Source: a virus
Length of the DNA stretch: 41,389 bases
Strand: one strand, 5' to 3'
Virus record (IMG/VR): IMGVR_UViG_3300032316_000299
Location: 1 to 41,389 of that record
Shown here: positions 4,841 through 38,991 of the stretch, in pieces
Numbering within the stretch: position 1 is the first letter of the stretch
Layout of the letters: each line of letters opens with the position of its first letter
Notes under the pieces: model-generated
What the model was told of the DNA's origin: nothing
The model's database searches: none
The model's input: the letters and a program-made list of their open reading frames with translations, nothing else
Position numbers and translations under genes: made by a program

Positions 4841-7003
4841 ATGCTGGATAAACAGAACATAATCGTTGAATACATCGAAGCACCTTCCGGTAACAAAGGA
4901 ATTGTTTTCCAAGTTGCACACGAGGTGTATTTGAAAATGGTGGATTACTTGCGATTGACGCAAGCAAAGAATACTTTTAACCGACTTTCTGATTATCATT
5001 ACCTAAATATTGCCGTTAGCAACTCTACTGAGCCAATCAGGGGCATTGATTACATCCATCCTGTTGTTACTCCAGGTGTTGATTACGCTACTGCCATCAT
5101 TACCAAGTGCCTGATGCCCAACGGCAAGGTTAACTTTGAGTTTGAACGGTTCAGTGAGATGGACAGTGCCCAAGCCAATCAGGCTACTGAGATGGTCAAG
5201 TATATGATCAACTCAAAGAATGATTCATATGCTTGTATCCGTGATTGGGCACAAGATTCATTGCTTCACAAGAACGGCATCATCATGGTGTCGCCTGTTC
5301 GTGAACCTATCACCCAATACAAAGAAGTTGAAGGCACACGGGATCAGTTGCGAGTCTTTGAGACTATGGCCGCTGAAAAAGGTCTGACAGTTAAGCGTCA
5401 AAACATGCGAAAGATTGACGTTGACCTTGAAACTGTTATGCAGGACATGATGAATCCTGATGACGAGCCTGGAACTGTGCAAGAAGAAGTGAACGAGGCT
5501 ATTTCGGCCAACACTGTGTACCGTGCCAAGTACAAGATGACAGGTTTCTCAACTTCTGTCCGTATCAAACACGTTGCCCAACACTACTTTGTGTGCAACC
5601 CCACAATTCCCAACATTCAAGATCAAGATTTTGTTGGCTTTTACGATCCAATGACTCTGCACGAGTGCAAAGCGCAGTTTCCTTACATTGACCTAGAAAA
5701 AATGGCTGAACACGCAGCCTATGGTCCTGCTGGAGCTTACCAAGCAGGTGCATTGGAAAACGACCTTGCTTTGCATGCCCGTGACTCCACTCCTGTTCCC
5801 GGTCAAGGTGTAATCGCATCTGCTGGTGCTGACAAGTTCAGCCGAGTCATCATGTTGACCACAGCATGGATTCGCAAAGACGTTGACAACGATGGAGAAG
5901 AGGAAATCGTTGAGGTTTGCTTCTCTGGCTCGTATGTTCTGTACGTCAAAGAGGTGGATTTCATCCCATTGGCGGCAATGTGCCCAAAACCCATCACTGG
6001 CAACTTCTTTGGTTACTCCCTTGCAGAGCGCCTTGTGCCTATGCAGGAATACGCCACATCAATTGCCCGTGCTGAGATGGCTTTTGCCATGCAGTCGTCT
6101 ACACCTCGCATTGGCGTAAACCCAGAGTTTATGGATGCCGAGGAGATCCAACGTGGCGTGTCTGCCATGTTTATCTTGGACCGTAAGTTTGACCCTGCCA
6201 AGCACATCTATGAGTTTGCACCAATGCAAGGCAACTTGGCTTATGTCCAATCGTCCATGCAGCGTTTTGAAGCTGACAAGATGGCAATGATTGGCATGAC
6301 AAGCCCCAACGATGTGTTGAACCCTGAAGTAATGAAGGACGGCAACTCGGGCTTTAAGCTGCAACTGGCTATGGGACCAAACCAGCTTATCCAAGACGAG
6401 ATGGTCAAGAACTGTGCCATTGGCTTGCGTGACATGATCTACATTGTCTGGAAAACATTGATCCAGTACTCTGACGATTACAACATTCAGCAGTTGGCAG
6501 GTGTTTGTGCCAAAGGGGCTCCATTTATGGATGCCATCTCAATGGAAAACTACGAATTCATTGACCGCAAGCTGATTAACATTGATTTGGCTCTTGGTTT
6601 TATGTCTGATGAGAACCGTTTGACCCGCCAACAATTGATTGGTCAGGCTCAACAGCAGTTTACCCAGGCCATGATGATGCTGGACCCAAGTGTTCCTGAA
6701 ATGTTTGTCAAACTGCGCCGACCTTTTGAAGATACTCTGCGTGTCTTGGGTGTTAAGGACGTTGATGCCTACTTGCCAACATTGGAAGAAGCTGCAAAGA
6801 TTATGCAAGCTCAAGCCGAGAAGGGTCCAAGCGCAGAACAGCAGAAACTTCAGTCTGAAACAGATTTGAACAAAGCCAAGATTGAAGACACAATGGCAAA
6901 CACTTACTTCACCCAGAAGAAGTCTGAGGATATTGACACAGACAACATGTTTGAGGCTTTGGCTGCTAAACGGGGTAAACTTACTTCAGTTCAAGTTGAT
7001 TAA
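4841..7003 (+). CDS. Portal protein (head-tail connector)
   Basis: 720 residues, placed directly after the large terminase and before the scaffold and capsid genes, the canonical portal position. It forms the dodecameric ring through which DNA enters and leaves the head. The sequence is of the large podovirus type: a mixed alpha/beta stem region, a long helical segment around residues 560-650, and a C-terminal coiled-coil 'barrel' region rich in Gln, Ala, Glu and Lys (QAQAEKGPSAEQQKLQSETD). There is no frameshift or internal stop. The family call rests on order, size and composition, not on a short diagnostic motif. Confidence 0.85.
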   Translation: MLDKQNIIVEYIEAPSGNKGIVFQVAHEVYLKMVDYLRLTQAKNTFNRLSDYHYLNIAVSNSTEPIRGIDYIHPVVTPGVDYATAIITKCLMPNGKVNFEFERFSEMDSAQANQATEMVKYMINSKNDSYACIRDWAQDSLLHKNGIIMVSPVREPITQYKEVEGTRDQLRVFETMAAEKGLTVKRQNMRKIDVDLETVMQDMMNPDDEPGTVQEEVNEAISANTVYRAKYKMTGFSTSVRIKHVAQHYFVCNPTIPNIQDQDFVGFYDPMTLHECKAQFPYIDLEKMAEHAAYGPAGAYQAGALENDLALHARDSTPVPGQGVIASAGADKFSRVIMLTTAWIRKDVDNDGEEEIVEVCFSGSYVLYVKEVDFIPLAAMCPKPITGNFFGYSLAERLVPMQEYATSIARAEMAFAMQSSTPRIGVNPEFMDAEEIQRGVSAMFILDRKFDPAKHIYEFAPMQGNLAYVQSSMQRFEADKMAMIGMTSPNDVLNPEVMKDGNSGFKLQLAMGPNQLIQDEMVKNCAIGLRDMIYIVWKTLIQYSDDYNIQQLAGVCAKGAPFMDAISMENYEFIDRKLINIDLALGFMSDENRLTRQQLIGQAQQQFTQAMMMLDPSVPEMFVKLRRPFEDTLRVLGVKDVDAYLPTLEEAAKIMQAQAEKGPSAEQQKLQSETDLNKAKIEDTMANTYFTQKKSEDIDTDNMFEALAAKRGKLTSVQVD

Positions 7004-29579: not shown

Positions 29580-30215
29580 TTAACCTTTTGCATTTTTGAG
29601 TGCAGAACGCACGGTGGAAGACATTTGGTTTGCCAGCCAAACACGTTGATCTGGCTCCAATGCCTGTTCGTCAATCATGGCAAGAGCTTCTTTAGCCTTA
29701 CCCTGGTCAACCAACTCTGTTGTTCCTGCTGCCAAATCAGTCAGGAAGTCTTTTATTTCTTGAGAAAGCTCGTCACCAATTCCACCACGGGGTGTGACTA
29801 CCGGAGCAGCACCTTTCTTTTTGACCCCCTCCTCTGTTAATTTTGGAGAAGAGTCCAAGGCATCGTGTTCAACGATCTCAAGCGCTGCAACCCACAAATA
29901 GCGTCTAAGGTAGGTCTGTACTGCCCCAAGGTTTTGGACCTCGTGACAGCCCTTTAAAGCCGCTGTAGACATGGGTGAAGAGATGGTGATCACCTCTTCT
30001 GGCTTTTCCACATTGATGATTCGCATATCAGCATATTCTTTGCTAAAGCTGATAATGCTTGTCAGGCCAACTTCATCAAAGATATTTAAAGCAGGAATAA
30101 TGAAATCACCAAGCTCAAAATACTTGTAGTTGGCAAATTTGTTGTGGCCTGATTTTTTCAGTTCAACGCTGTGAAACTTATGCCGAGCATCATTTAATTT
30201 TTGGTAGATGTTCAT
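29580..30215 (-). CDS. erf: ERF-family single-strand annealing recombinase
   Basis: 211 residues. NKFANYKYFELGDFIIPALN with a downstream EVGLTSII, then GAVQTYLRRYLWVAALEIVEHDALD (about residues 95-120) is the ERF/Sak signature. The family anneals complementary single strands, for circularisation or recombination-dependent replication. The C-terminal third is a Lys/Glu-rich helical tail. It is coupled to the upstream gene (TAATG) and followed by the SSB-like gene, its probable partner. RusA at 34384 could resolve the products. Confidence 0.9.
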   Translation of the reverse strand: MNIYQKLNDARHKFHSVELKKSGHNKFANYKYFELGDFIIPALNIFDEVGLTSIISFSKEYADMRIINVEKPEEVITISSPMSTAALKGCHEVQNLGAVQTYLRRYLWVAALEIVEHDALDSSPKLTEEGVKKKGAAPVVTPRGGIGDELSQEIKDFLTDLAAGTTELVDQGKAKEALAMIDEQALEPDQRVWLANQMSSTVRSALKNAKG

Positions 30216-30454
30216 TAGTTGCTTCCGTAAATTAGGTCGTATTCTTCTTGCACAATTTGTGTTTGTGTTGCGTCATCAAAATCTTGGAACTCCAAGAAGT
30301 GGGATTCTTTACAGCACGACAGCTTGTGACCCTTAGGCTCCATGCAGTATGGGCAATAAAAAACACCGATGAGGTTTTCTTTAGCTTCTTCCAAAAATGT
30401 CTTCATATATTCCTCTTCCATTTGCACTGTTTGGTAAAACTGTTCTTGGCTCAT
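30215..30454 (-). CDS. Small zinc-binding protein
   Basis: 79 residues from the ATG at 30454, which overlaps the previous stop (ATGA) and has AGGGA upstream. YCPYCMEPKGHKLSCC provides a CxxC and a CC pair that could bind one zinc ion. The N-terminal half is a charged helix (EEEYMKTFLEEAKENL). Function unknown; the position suggests an early or recombination accessory. Confidence 0.7.
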   Translation of the reverse strand: MSQEQFYQTVQMEEEYMKTFLEEAKENLIGVFYCPYCMEPKGHKLSCCKESHFLEFQDFDDATQTQIVQEEYDLIYGSN

Positions 30455-30663
30455 GCTTCCCTCGCTTGCAGCATGGCGTCTGCATACGAATATGCCCACG
30501 ATGCCGTGGTACGAGCATCGTCTTGGACAACGGGCGAGGTGAGCATAAGTTGCGCCATCGCCTTGGCTGCAAAGTAGTCACGCAAGGTCATACCTTGTTC
30601 AGTGATGTGAGATACACCTGCTGGTGCGGGAAATGCTGGCCCACCTGTGTTTGTATTGCTCAT
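30451..30663 (-). CDS. Small conserved phage protein
   Basis: 70 residues: GGPAFPAPAGV, then GMTLRDYFAAKAMAQLM and SWAYSYADAMLQAREA. This arrangement (a GGPAFP start followed by 'GMTLRDYFAAKAM') is very common in tailed phages of proteobacteria, with no known function. Four-base ATGA overlaps occur at both ends, so the gene is part of a coupled leftward string. Confidence 0.8.
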   Translation of the reverse strand: MSNTNTGGPAFPAPAGVSHITEQGMTLRDYFAAKAMAQLMLTSPVVQDDARTTASWAYSYADAMLQAREA

Positions 30664-30815
30664 AATTTACGAGTCACTGGTTTGGCAAGAAGCCATTTGT
30701 CACCTAAGTAACGGATTGATTTAATCCATTCCCGGCAGTTGTGTCGTTGTGTGTGTGCTGGCACACCGTTAACACAATACATTTGACGGACCTTAACAAG
30801 GGCTTGTGTGTTCAT
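30660..30815 (-). CDS. 51-residue basic protein
   Basis: Reads MNTQALVKVRQMYCVNGVPA and ends KWLLAKPVTRKL, with ATGA overlaps to both neighbours. Two Cys and two His residues are scattered without a clear finger. Its high Arg/Lys content is compatible with nucleic-acid binding. The double coupling is the main evidence that it is translated. Confidence 0.65.
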   Translation of the reverse strand: MNTQALVKVRQMYCVNGVPAHTQRHNCREWIKSIRYLGDKWLLAKPVTRKL

Positions 30816-34301: not shown

Positions 34302-34390
34302 AAAAAGTACTATGGCCTTTCCCTGTTCGTAACGGTCAACCCGTTAAGCCTGAGGAAATCCCGTTCAAGACGGAGCCAGCACCATGGTGA
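34298..34390 (+). CDS. 30-residue micro-protein before rusA
   Basis: Starts MKKVLWPFPVRNGQPVKPEE and ends TEPAPW. It overlaps the previous stop (ATGA) and the rusA start. Short peptides in such chains may mainly serve to keep ribosomes flowing into rusA. Confidence 0.5.
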   Translation: MKKVLWPFPVRNGQPVKPEEIPFKTEPAPW

Positions 34391-34812
34391 TGCACATAAC
34401 CTTCAAGGTGGAAGCCACTCCTGTAGGAAAAGGCAGACCCAAGTTTGCCAGGAGAGGCAACTTTGTCTCAACCTACACCCCAACCAAGACCCGAGACTAC
34501 GAGGACTTGATTAAGGATGCTGCCAAACAAGCAATGGGAACCAACGAACCCTTAAAAACGCCTGTAGCAGCTTATATCTACATCACAGTACCTATCCCTC
34601 AGTCCTACTCAAAGAAGCGCTCTAAGGCCTGTTTAGAGGGCTTGGAGAGGCCATGCAAGAAGCCAGACATCGACAACATCTTAAAAGCCTACTTAGATGC
34701 CATGAATGGGATCGTTTATGACGATGACACCCAGGTTGTTTCCTTGCACAGCACAAAGGTGTATGGGACGGTGGGTTTGGTTGAGGTGTTGGTCAAAGAA
34801 GACATGGACTAA
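34384..34812 (+). CDS. rusA: RusA-family Holliday junction resolvase
   Basis: 142 residues (or 140 if the next ATG at 34390 is used). The GRPKFARRGNFVSTYTP region is the DNA-binding face; KKPDIDNILKAYLDAM gives Asp95 and Asp97, and VYDDDTQV the third acidic cluster (113-115), the metal-binding triad of RusA. It cuts four-way junctions and so completes the ERF/SSB-like recombination pathway and prepares DNA for packaging. The length is close to the family norm of about 120. Confidence 0.92.
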   Translation: MVMHITFKVEATPVGKGRPKFARRGNFVSTYTPTKTRDYEDLIKDAAKQAMGTNEPLKTPVAAYIYITVPIPQSYSKKRSKACLEGLERPCKKPDIDNILKAYLDAMNGIVYDDDTQVVSLHSTKVYGTVGLVEVLVKEDMD

Positions 34813-36265: not shown

Positions 36266-36738
36266 AAAAGAAAAGCAAATACAAACCCCGTGGTGTCCGT
36301 TACGATAATTTATCGTGGATCGTTGCTGGGTTTAAAAAGGTAGGAACTTTACCTACTGCTGGTGTTGCTCTTAAGCTTAAAAACCATGAAGCTTTAGATT
36401 CAATTCTTACAGGCCAAGGAACAAAATCACATGTAGATGTATTGATTGCTGCTGTCAACATGAGTGAAGCATTTATTCGTGTAAGAGATGAGTTAGGCAA
36501 GGATTGGGCAGAAGAGATCAGAGCAGCCCAGGATGCTATTTACACAATGGGTAGACGAGGCTTTGAGAGAAACAGCTTTGTGTTTACTGGACCAGAGATG
36601 ACTGCTGTAAAACTAGTGATGGATCTGCATGATGCCCAACTAGACGATTGTTTCGTAAGAGAGATGGAACAAGCACTGTTCATTGTTGAGGAAGAGATCA
36701 GAATGAAGAAAGCCAGACCAATAGTGGAGATGGCGTAA
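36262..36738 (+). CDS. Conserved phage protein of unknown function
   Basis: 158 residues, mostly helical. A basic start (MKKKSKYKPRGVRYDNLSWI) is followed by LKLKNHEALDSILTGQGTKS, AAVNMSEAFIRVRDELGKDW and a final FTGPEMTAVKLVMDLHDAQL. I recall this arrangement in phages of Burkholderiales as a hypothetical protein. The early position and basic N-terminus suggest host takeover or transcriptional control, but no catalytic or DNA-binding motif is recognised. Confidence 0.7.
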   Translation: MKKKSKYKPRGVRYDNLSWIVAGFKKVGTLPTAGVALKLKNHEALDSILTGQGTKSHVDVLIAAVNMSEAFIRVRDELGKDWAEEIRAAQDAIYTMGRRGFERNSFVFTGPEMTAVKLVMDLHDAQLDDCFVREMEQALFIVEEEIRMKKARPIVEMA

Positions 36739-37013
36739 TGGAGTTTGATAACCCTTTTGAATACAAGAAACCAGAGTGGCTGGTACTTGAGGAGCGTGAG
36801 AAGCGTAGAGAGGCTAGGGCAAAGCGCCTTGGAAGAACTATTGGCAACTGGGGAGGAAGGCGTAAAGGGGCCGGAAAGAAGCGAGAACGCCCATATGACG
36901 CAAAGGTGTACATCAACCATACCAGGATGCAATACCTGCTCCTGATGGACTTAGGTGAAGGTGACCTGAGTGCTGGTGTACAGAAATTAATTGATCAAAA
37001 ATTGGAATCGTAA
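36738..37013 (+). CDS. AT-hook-like / ribbon-helix-helix-like DNA-binding candidate
   Basis: 91 residues. A charged helix (EEREKRREARAKRLGR) leads to NWGGRRKGAGKKRERP, a minor-groove-binding GGRRxGAG(R/K)K motif common in phage and transposon regulators. The C-terminal YDAKVYINHTRMQYLLLMDL, then GDLSAGVQKLIDQ, resembles the strand-helix-helix of small RHH proteins. Start overlaps the previous stop (TAATG); stop overlaps the alpha-CTD-like gene. It may bind operator sites such as those at 31163 and 41086. Confidence 0.6.
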   Translation: MEFDNPFEYKKPEWLVLEEREKRREARAKRLGRTIGNWGGRRKGAGKKRERPYDAKVYINHTRMQYLLLMDLGEGDLSAGVQKLIDQKLES

Positions 37014-37399
37014 TGAATAAAACAGAAATGCTAGACCACTTTGCCTTGTACGCAATGCAAGCACAAGTTGAAAAAATGGGCGTCACAAACCCTTTTGCTG
37101 TTGCTCAAAGTTCGTATCGAATGGCCGCAGAAATGTTAGAGCATCGTGACCGTATTTTGCAAGAATGGCAAAAAGAACAAGAGACTCAACATCGACATAA
37201 GGCATCTGATTTACATGAATTAGAACTGCCAGTCAGGTATCACAGATGTTTAATATCAGAAGATATTTTGATGAAGCGTGATTTATCCAATTGGACTGAA
37301 CATCAAATAAGAAAAATACCAAACTTAGGTGTCAAGGGATTGCAATTTCTTAAATATGCAATGGCTGTACATGAATTGAAATTTAAAGGACAAGAATGA
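37013..37399 (+). CDS. RNA polymerase alpha-CTD-like protein
   Basis: 128 residues. Residues 67-122 align without gaps to the C-terminal domain of bacterial RNA polymerase alpha: LPVRYHRCL (Arg75 at the place of E. coli Arg265), then DL, TE, K, and IPNLGVKGL (Asn104, Gly106, Lys108 at Asn294, Gly296, Lys298). The spacing Arg75 to Gly106 is 31, as in alpha. Alpha-CTD binds UP elements and activators. Residues 1-60 are a separate helical segment. It could titrate activators or tether polymerase to phage promoters; alternatively it is simply a helix-hairpin-helix DNA-binding protein. Confidence 0.7.
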   Translation: MNKTEMLDHFALYAMQAQVEKMGVTNPFAVAQSSYRMAAEMLEHRDRILQEWQKEQETQHRHKASDLHELELPVRYHRCLISEDILMKRDLSNWTEHQIRKIPNLGVKGLQFLKYAMAVHELKFKGQE

Positions 37400-37866
37400 A
37401 TGTTTTGCCTTTAACTCTTGCAGACGCAAATGCTTTTGTTACTTTGCATCATAGGCACAATAAAAAAGTGCAGGGTCATAAATTTAGTATCGGTGCAGTT
37501 GAAGAAGACAATCTTGTTGGTGTAGCAATAGTTGGTAGACCTGTATCAAGATATTTGGATGATGGTTTAACAATGGAAATTACAAGATTAACTGTGCTTG
37601 ACGATTCCCCTAAAAATACTTGTTCATTTCTTTATAGATGTGCTTGGCGTATATGGTCTGCAATGGGTGGGCAAAGAATAATTACATATACAACAGAGTC
37701 GGAAACAGGATCATCACTCAAAGGTGCAGGTTTTAAAGTTGTTGCTAAGTCGCCTTCTTGGAAAGAAGGCACTGGATGGACAACTAGAAGCAATCGAGTC
37801 TGGCAACCTGTGCATTCAGAAGGAAAAGTTCGTTGGCAAATTGATAAAGGACAAAGCAATGCTTGA
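37396..37866 (+). CDS. XF1762-family GNAT-like protein
   Basis: 156 residues: PLTLADANAFVTLHHRHNKK, GHKFSIGAVEEDNLVGVAIV, then EITRLTVLDDSPKNTCSFLY and RIITYTTESETGSSLKGAGF. This matches XF1762-like phage proteins, a GNAT-fold group; the TRL strand and the NTCSFLYR loop occupy the acetyl-CoA site. The substrate is unknown. It is the second GNAT-type protein in the genome (the other is at 557). It overlaps neighbours by four and eight bases. Confidence 0.85.
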   Translation: MNVLPLTLADANAFVTLHHRHNKKVQGHKFSIGAVEEDNLVGVAIVGRPVSRYLDDGLTMEITRLTVLDDSPKNTCSFLYRCAWRIWSAMGGQRIITYTTESETGSSLKGAGFKVVAKSPSWKEGTGWTTRSNRVWQPVHSEGKVRWQIDKGQSNA

Positions 37867-38026
37867 ACAAAGAAAAGACGCTCCCGGCAATCCACCATAT
37901 TGGGTTTGTACCAAATGCAACTGGGCTTTTCCTGTGTTGCGAGAAGCCACCAGCCACCAATGTGGAACAGAAGAAAAAGCACTTCCAGCTTATGTAAGTT
38001 ACTCAAGGAAAAGCAATGGACATTGA
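37859..38026 (+). CDS. Small zinc-finger-like protein
   Basis: 55 residues from ATG 37859 with AAAGGA upstream. VCTKCNWAFPV and TSHQCGTEE give CxxC and HxC ligands for a single C2HC-type site. It overlaps the XF1762 gene by eight bases and the next gene by eleven. Function unknown. Confidence 0.65.
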   Translation: MLEQRKDAPGNPPYWVCTKCNWAFPVLREATSHQCGTEEKALPAYVSYSRKSNGH

Positions 38027-38339
38027 CCCAAACAAATGCGTGGCATACATCATGGAAAACGCCCCTAAATTTGCAAAAGCAAAAGCAGAACGGGTGTTCA
38101 TTGAAAACTATCTGAGGACGGTCAAGAGCCGTTTGATGAACTTGGAAGCAGGTACGCTAGGCAATAAAGAAGCTTATGCTTATGCTCACCCTGATTACGA
38201 GCTACAGTTGAAGGGATTAAAAGCAGCAACTGAAGAGGAAGAGGCTTTGAAGTTCATGCTGGTAGCTGCCCAGATGCGGTTTGACACTTGGAAAACCCAA
38301 GAGTATTCCAAACGCCAAGAACTTAAAAACCTGCCATGA
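38016..38339 (+). CDS. Helical conserved phage protein
   Basis: 107 residues, wholly helical with a coiled-coil appearance: YIMENAPKFAKAKAERVFIE, YLRTVKSRLMNLEAG, and LKAATEEEEALKFMLVAAQM. This pattern (an 'AYIxxNAPxxAxAKAxRxxxE' start) occurs next to YbcO-like nucleases in other phages. It may be a partner of the nuclease, coupled here by ATGA. Confidence 0.7.
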   Translation: MDIDPNKCVAYIMENAPKFAKAKAERVFIENYLRTVKSRLMNLEAGTLGNKEAYAYAHPDYELQLKGLKAATEEEEALKFMLVAAQMRFDTWKTQEYSKRQELKNLP

Positions 38340-38632
38340 GCAAGATCAGGAAGAGTGCAAGGGGTGAGGATTGCACAATCAATCTTCCTGGAATCTGCAA
38401 CTACAACCCCGAAACAGTGGTGTGGTGTCACAGTAATCGATACGAGCATGGCAAGGGAATGGGTTTAAAAGCCAAAGACGAGCATGGGGCATATGGGTGT
38501 AGTGAATGTCATGCCACATATGACAGACAAAGAAAACGCCCAGAAACCCTGTCCTTGGAGAATGTTGAAGATGCTTTTACAATGGCAATGACGAAATCTA
38601 GGCAGATTTTGAAAGACAAGGGTTTGATATGA
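38336..38632 (+). CDS. YbcO-like nuclease (DUF1364)
   Basis: 98 residues. Cys13, Cys21, Cys31-His32 and Cys55/Cys58-His59 follow the DUF1364 pattern (CxxNxPGxC, VVWCHSNR, GMGLKAKDEHGAYGCSECH). E. coli YbcO of prophage DLP12 is the named relative, regarded as an HNH-like, metal-dependent nuclease. It probably acts on branched or single-stranded DNA in recombination along with RusA and ERF. Start overlaps the previous stop as ATGA; its stop overlaps the next start. Confidence 0.85.
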   Translation: MSKIRKSARGEDCTINLPGICNYNPETVVWCHSNRYEHGKGMGLKAKDEHGAYGCSECHATYDRQRKRPETLSLENVEDAFTMAMTKSRQILKDKGLI

Positions 38633-38991
38633 ATAAAGAAGTCGGTGAGTTTGTTTTGACGTTGTTCCATGCAGCAACCAATACCCATTTGCTTCACCTG
38701 CGGAGTAAGAGCTTTGCAGAGCATCAAGCACTGGGCACTTTCTACCAAGAACTGCCTGGGCTGGTTGATGTGGTTGCTGAGTCAATCCAAGGCTTGTACG
38801 AGGAGTTGATCGACTACCCTGTTGATTACTACCCACCAATGGAAGATGCACTGGACGAGTTGAGAGCATTAAAGGACTATGTCAAAGATGAACGGGCAGA
38901 GCTACCGCAAGACAGTGAGATCCAAAACAGTATTGATGCCATTGCCGACCTGATTGACTCGACCATTTACAAACTTAAATTCCTGAAGTGA
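38629..38991 (+). CDS. Dps/ferritin-like protein (DUF5856-like)
   Basis: 120 residues. HLLHLRSKSFAEHQALGTFY, then GLVDVVAESIQGLYEEL. His20, His32, Asp47 and Glu51 have the spacing 12-15-4, as I recall for E. coli Dps ferroxidase ligands His51, His63, Asp78 and Glu82. Dps oxidises iron and coats DNA. The protein is shorter than Dps, lacks the long N-terminal tail, and ends in a helix after IQNSIDAIADLID. It could guard phage DNA against peroxide, sequester iron or compact DNA. It is the last gene before a strong terminator. Confidence 0.75.
   Translation: MNKEVGEFVLTLFHAATNTHLLHLRSKSFAEHQALGTFYQELPGLVDVVAESIQGLYEELIDYPVDYYPPMEDALDELRALKDYVKDERAELPQDSEIQNSIDAIADLIDSTIYKLKFLK

Follow-up and report, generated by a model that had tools for sequence, protein, structure and literature searches.

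A two-domain early phage protein carrying a homologue of the RNA polymerase alpha C-terminal domain

Introduction

The C-terminal domain of the RNA polymerase alpha subunit (alpha-CTD) is usually seen as a component of RNA polymerase that phage proteins target. A sequence of 41,389 nucleotides from an aquatic phage (IMG/VR record IMGVR_UViG_3300032316_000299; the window) encodes a small protein that itself resembles this domain. A first-pass annotation, made from the sequence alone, described it as a phage-encoded mimic that could redirect host polymerase, compete for activators, or serve as a DNA-binding adaptor fused to a novel helical domain. Is the resemblance genuine, and would such a protein act on the host polymerase or use an alpha-CTD for another purpose?

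Results

Homology of the C-terminal half to alpha-CTD

The gene (37013-37399, + strand) encodes a two-domain protein of 128 amino acids from an ATG start, and its frame shares TAATG with the gene upstream and ATGA with the one downstream. Pfam family RNA_pol_A_CTD (PF03118) matches residues 54-111 (E = 8.9e-10; 38.6 bits against a cut-off of 23.8), is the sole family matching the protein at E ≤ 10, and occurs once across the whole window; no other helix-hairpin-helix family scored better. The same family exceeded its cut-off in 20 of 20 records of relatives tested. All 33 matches obtained with phmmer against the PDB were RNA polymerase alpha, and a profile of 20 relatives recovered alpha-CTD at E-values down to 4.7e-11, the only other matches being to a flagellar coiling protein (E ≥ 0.4). 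Matches to PHROGs were weak throughout and lay mostly over the N-terminal domain region.

An AlphaFold2 model built on a 20-sequence alignment reached a pLDDT of 92-94 in the C-terminal half, which superposes on alpha-CTD: the best Foldseek matches in the PDB were alpha subunits or isolated alpha-CTDs (e.g., 1lb2_B), and the match to 8y5t_A2 gave a TM-score of 0.85 over the target at an rmsd of 1.4. Identity to alpha-CTD in the Foldseek alignments is moderate, at about 30-40% over 60 residues. Residues 67-122 align with E. coli alpha-CTD without a gap at an offset of 190, and the residue pairs listed by the first-pass annotation were all correct. The alpha-CTD domain, as delimited by PF03118, by the fold and by the per-site comparison with 45 RpoA domains given below, spans residues 63-128 (37199-37396, + strand) and includes the helix-hairpin-helix motif IPNLGxKG. 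The alpha-NTD needed for assembly into RNA polymerase is absent from this 128-residue protein, in which residues 1-62 match a phage family instead. We regard it as near certain that the protein is a true homologue of RNA polymerase alpha-CTD.

The N-terminal helical domain

The predicted helices of the N-terminal half span residues 3-22 and 27-63. A tblastn search with this half alone gave no match. A consensus sequence was used as bait only, and homology was tested with the natural proteins that it retrieved. Residues 6-47 (37028-37153, + strand) proved homologous to a family of small early phage proteins that includes D3 orf38, PAJU2 ORF035, Sf101_0033 and members in BUCT711, CobraSix and other phages, with the core RDYFAAKAMQ...AYxxADAMLKAR. 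The hhalign probability was 96.4% (E = 1.4e-9), against 6% for the best of 40 column shuffles. A profile of the natural stand-alone proteins found the domain by hmmsearch in all relatives examined, at E-values of about 1e-7 to 1e-4 in most, 4.7e-6 in the window fusion and 0.012 in the weakest. The stand-alone proteins tested matched no Pfam family. The helical domain, which had been proposed to be novel, thus belongs to a widespread family. Sequence and predicted structure together establish a two-domain early protein, comprising a small helical domain, one long predicted helix and an alpha-CTD-homologous domain.

The family also has a stand-alone copy in the window (GGPAFP...RDYFAAKAM...ADAMLQARE; 30454-30666, - strand; hmmsearch E = 2.1e-24), an open frame directly upstream of the erf unit. 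The window genome therefore holds both the fusion and a stand-alone paralogue. A GGPAFP-like motif occurs in most, not all, stand-alone members and is absent from the alpha-CTD fusion. In BUCT711 the stand-alone gene lies directly upstream of a PD-(D/E)XK nuclease gene and RecT; it is found with Gam, RecT and exonuclease genes in CobraSix, with Erf in Tbat2_3, and with a "recombination protein" and an anti-RecBCD gene in Sf101.

One related contig (L005, 5978-6673) combines residues 43-128, the alpha-CTD half, with a different early-protein N-terminus (LALEALEEI...TWVGLNEED), either as a natural fusion or through an assembly error. Provided that the contig is correctly assembled, this joining suggests that the two halves are exchangeable.

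DNA-, sigma- and activator-facing positions

We compared 23 distinct phage sequences with 45 distinct RpoA domains, the latter mostly from one phylum, site by site. In the rrnB P1 complex, R265 and N294 of alpha enter the minor groove, and K291 and K298 contact the backbone (PMC7822876). The equivalents of R265, N294 and K298 (R75, N104 and K108) are invariant in all 23 phage sequences, and position 101, which corresponds to 291 of alpha, is K or R in every one. The codon of the invariant Arg75 lies at 37235-37237 (+ strand), and those of Asn104-Leu-Gly-Val-Lys108, equivalent to N294, G296 and K298 and invariant at 104, 106 and 108, lie at 37322-37336 (+ strand).

Two further residues of the DNA face differ, in agreement with the first-pass annotation. 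N268, which matters for both DNA binding and activation through UP elements in E. coli (PMC11434276), is replaced by R in 91% of the phage sequences, including the window protein (R78), and is N in the others; the position of S299 is G in all (G109 in the window protein). Both residues are invariant in the 45 RpoA domains compared, and neither is required by PF03118. Since these two DNA-binding residues of E. coli alpha are replaced, mostly by R and by G, respectively, affinity and specificity may differ. The position of E302 is mostly F in the phage family.

The mean net charge of the phage domain is +2.4, versus 0 in E. coli. At the positions taken to face sigma, D258 is changed to K, H or Q and E261 to D or N, with variation within the phage family. 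At those likewise taken to face activators, V287 and L290 are changed to R and G315 to K. The D259 position is acidic throughout, and T285, E286 and E288 are mostly retained. W94, R100, K88 and K123 are new invariant residues of the phage family and point to a changed role. This surface pattern fits a domain that may have been retained for DNA binding and freed from RNA polymerase contacts, with the caution that the residues of the hairpin are also under structural constraint. The acidic residue at 259 and the mostly kept 285, 286 and 288 positions leave room for contacts related to RNA polymerase.

Relatives in phages and bacteria

Homologues in other phages, the search for which had been proposed at the outset, were found. 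Scans of IMG/VR yielded about 30 related loci, most of them sharing 63-88% identity with the window protein; L048, L057, L075, L083 and L085 came in addition from a motif scan. The best match in BFVD was A0A6J5MNY7, a 128-residue protein of an uncultured Caudovirales phage, which is 55% identical over its full length and so belongs to the same protein family; UniProt names it automatically "RNA polymerase, alpha subunit, C-terminal". As such automatically named homologues exist, proteins of this kind are already familiar to annotation pipelines. Our literature search found no paper on the function of a phage alpha-CTD protein, and no published function, domain analysis or context for the automatically annotated phage copies.

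Named phages gave only weak alpha-CTD matches to the window protein, and the last 11.4 kb of the window has no close DNA relatives among them. PF03118 matches Goe8_c00050 (E = 4.3e-22) and Morrill gp24 (E = 4.5e-11), and its match to Reynauld gp63 is weak and below the cut-off. Goe8_c00050 (L040, 1959-2591) is a 210-residue "RNA polymerase subunit alpha" of Bacillus phage Goe8, with an N-terminal part of 140 residues that belongs to no clear family. Searches of viral contigs returned no relatives of Morrill gp24 and, for Goe8_c00050, Goe8 itself only.

Alignment patterns revealed no prophage copies in bacterial genome contigs. A search of 398 genomes from the E. coli phylum, run without a positive control, gave no copies of the alpha-CTD-like gene at E ≤ 1e-12. 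Of these genomes, 21 (G110, G186 and others) contain multiple PF03118 matches, up to five per genome; several of the matches lie in full-length RpoA-like frames and represent extra alpha subunits.

Genomic neighbourhood and mobility

The alpha-CTD-like gene lies directly behind the gene of a small basic protein with a GGRRKGAGKK stretch (36738-37013, + strand), which matches no Pfam family and is weakly similar to phrog_7830. Their stop and start codons overlap within a tight same-strand run. An ATGA overlap leads into a Mom-like DNA modification gene (37396-37866, + strand; phrog_1384, E = 1.3e-35; PF25680 just below cut-off). Two further downstream genes of the run encode a 107-residue conserved protein and a YbcO/HNH nuclease (38016-38632, + strand), and a RusA-like Holliday junction resolvase lies upstream in it (34384-34812, + strand; phrog_140, E = 3.9e-45). 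The gene of an Erf-like single-strand annealing protein (29580-30215, - strand; phrog_155, E = 1.9e-23) is 6.8 kb from the alpha-CTD-like gene, on the opposite strand. No YqaJ exonuclease was found in the window. Among the window proteins compared with PHROGs, most of the large ones included, none is an RNA polymerase, in line with the earlier observation that no phage RNA polymerase gene is evident.

Two side observations concern the same run. One is a small zinc-ribbon-like protein (37724-38026), whose frame and the end of the Mom-like gene overlap. In L008-L010 the zinc-ribbon frame begins within the last bases of the alpha-CTD-like gene, an arrangement suggestive of insertion or loss of Mom between the two. 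The other is a protein at the end of the run (38629-38991), which matches DUF5856 and a PHROG annotated as "starvation-inducible transcriptional regulator" (E = 7.6e-25).

Across relatives, the gene is most often found in a recombination operon. The order annealase, alpha-CTD-like gene, YqaJ exonuclease occurs in 14 of 25 distinct relatives, a count that includes the L032-type and L085, where contig ends leave one side only visible, and the genes overlap by 1-4 bases in most cases. The annealase is ERF in some relatives and Sak in others, and Pfam confirms representatives of ERF, Sak and YqaJ. The remaining 11 relatives have other contexts. The main one, which includes the window, runs from RusA through the small basic protein, the alpha-CTD-like protein, an optional Mom-like protein, the zinc-ribbon protein and the 107-residue protein to HNH/YbcO; of the two main contexts, this is the only one in which the small basic protein adjoins the alpha-CTD-like gene. 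The Mom-like gene occupies the same place in L012, L005 and L075 and is absent from it in L008-L010. In L015, the ERF gene adjoins the YqaJ gene directly, and the alpha-CTD-like gene is found some 1.5 kb farther downstream, on the same strand. In L004, a repeat protein rich in alanine, arginine and aspartate (AAWDAARDAAR...; 6265-6861) is encoded upstream of the annealase unit.

A tree of the relatives forces at least three changes of annealase/exonuclease context. MW202484, the nearest named phage (81% TerL), has no match for the alpha-CTD-like gene. The GC content of this gene is 0.367, and that of the Mom-like gene is 0.386, versus 0.457 for the window. Given the lack of a copy in MW202484, the low GC content and the varied contexts, the gene is best read as an early, dispensable cassette that is repeatedly, though not always, tied to recombination genes.

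Discussion

The conserved DNA face makes it very probable that the alpha-CTD-like protein binds DNA. Arg75 and Asn104 would enter the minor groove and Lys/Arg101 and Lys108 would contact the backbone, just as their counterparts do in alpha. The protein would stay out of RNA polymerase because it has no alpha-NTD and its sigma and activator faces are rewritten. With moderate confidence, we propose that the N-terminal domain associates with itself or with a phage partner, and that the protein recruits this partner to DNA, serving as an accessory factor to the early recombination/replication module formed by the annealase and, where present, YqaJ.

An accessory DNA-binding factor of the recombination or early module is the best single reading of the sequence data, to which we assign a probability of roughly 0.5. 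An alpha-CTD joined to a common phage domain, often amid recombination genes, more likely represents a DNA-binding tool put to new use than a stand-in for the polymerase. RecT, Erf, Gam or exonuclease genes accompany homologues of the N-terminal domain in early operons, and one homologue lies beside erf in the window. Against this, the window gene itself is away from erf and without YqaJ, the relatives in other contexts are many (11 of 25), and sites between recombination genes might merely tolerate insertions. A more specific proposal, which we find quite improbable, is that the alpha-CTD acts as a loading factor that ties the annealase-exonuclease pair to DNA also used by the polymerase (for example, DNA that is A/T-rich or upstream of promoters), steering recombination to or from transcribed regions.

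The main rival, and the leading idea of the first-pass annotation, is a transcription factor derived from alpha-CTD that, early in infection, would redirect or weaken transcription of the host by sitting on A/T-rich upstream DNA or by touching sigma region 4 or activators. True homology, the retained R265, N294 and K298 equivalents and the universally acidic 259 position speak for it, as does Goe8_c00050, a second phage protein with an alpha-CTD, whose gene stands among small genes right where its genome begins. Moreover, alpha-CTD is a known phage target: T4 Alt and ModA modify Arg265 of alpha (PMC2988021), Rac causes removal of alpha-CTD, and P2 Ogr binds alpha (PMC7552054). However, positions 258, 261, 287, 290 and 315 are changed, several to basic residues, the N268 needed for UP-element use (PMC11434276) is mostly R, and the genomic association is with recombination genes rather than regulators. 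We consider this explanation doubtful. The mimic first proposed is thus not favoured, the DNA face being kept, the sigma and activator faces rewritten and the commonest neighbourhood a recombination operon, not transcription control; of the options originally offered, the DNA-binding adaptor survives best.

The gene might also be a mobile early accessory gene with another job, such as counter-defence or host inhibition, that acquired its DNA-binding domain from alpha-CTD by happenstance and uses the recombination site as an insertion hot spot. Its absence from the nearest named phage, its low GC content, its many contexts (including that beside Mom-like and zinc-ribbon genes) and the location of N-domain relatives in early regions rich in such genes are consistent with this. 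Yet, across deep branches, the gene is found in this one slot, tightly overlapping its neighbours, with either of two annealase families, which makes this account distinctly unlikely. Chance resemblance, or descent from a different helix-hairpin-helix family, is barely credible despite the moderate identity and the differences at N268 and S299, since PF03118 was the only family found and exceeded its cut-off in every member tested, the PDB profile matches were essentially all RNA polymerase alpha, and the fold superposes.

Phage homologues of alpha-CTD are not themselves new, as they are already in UniProt. What the present analysis adds is that alpha-CTD recurs in phages as a free, predicted DNA-binding module fused to a widespread early phage domain, for which the database name "RNA polymerase, alpha subunit, C-terminal" is misleading. 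If the protein binds the annealase or exonuclease, this would provide a first functional handle on the early-domain family and a case of a transcription domain reused in recombination.

Compared with the alpha-CTD of RNA polymerase (PF03118; E. coli RpoA 250-329), the phage protein has the same fold and the same R265, N294, G296, K298 and basic residue at 291, but it is more basic, lacks an alpha-NTD and has rewritten sigma and activator faces. In Goe8_c00050, Morrill gp24 (Microbacterium phage) and proteins of Rhodococcus phages, the alpha-CTD is likewise C-terminal in a small phage protein, whereas the N-terminal parts are unrelated to that of the window protein and the neighbourhoods are different; other phage entries automatically annotated "RNA polymerase, alpha subunit, C-terminal" have mainly the alpha-CTD half in common with it. 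Proteins of the D3 orf38, PAJU2 ORF035 and Sf101_0033 type are homologous to residues 6-47 and are encoded in early operons, several near recombination genes, but most start with the GGPAFP-like motif and they carry no alpha-CTD. Finally, in modules of an ERF or Sak annealase and a YqaJ exonuclease, the alpha-CTD-like gene fills the slot between both in the 14 distinct relatives described above; the slot is not obligatory, as the pair occurs without the gene between (L015) and the gene occurs without YqaJ, as in the window.
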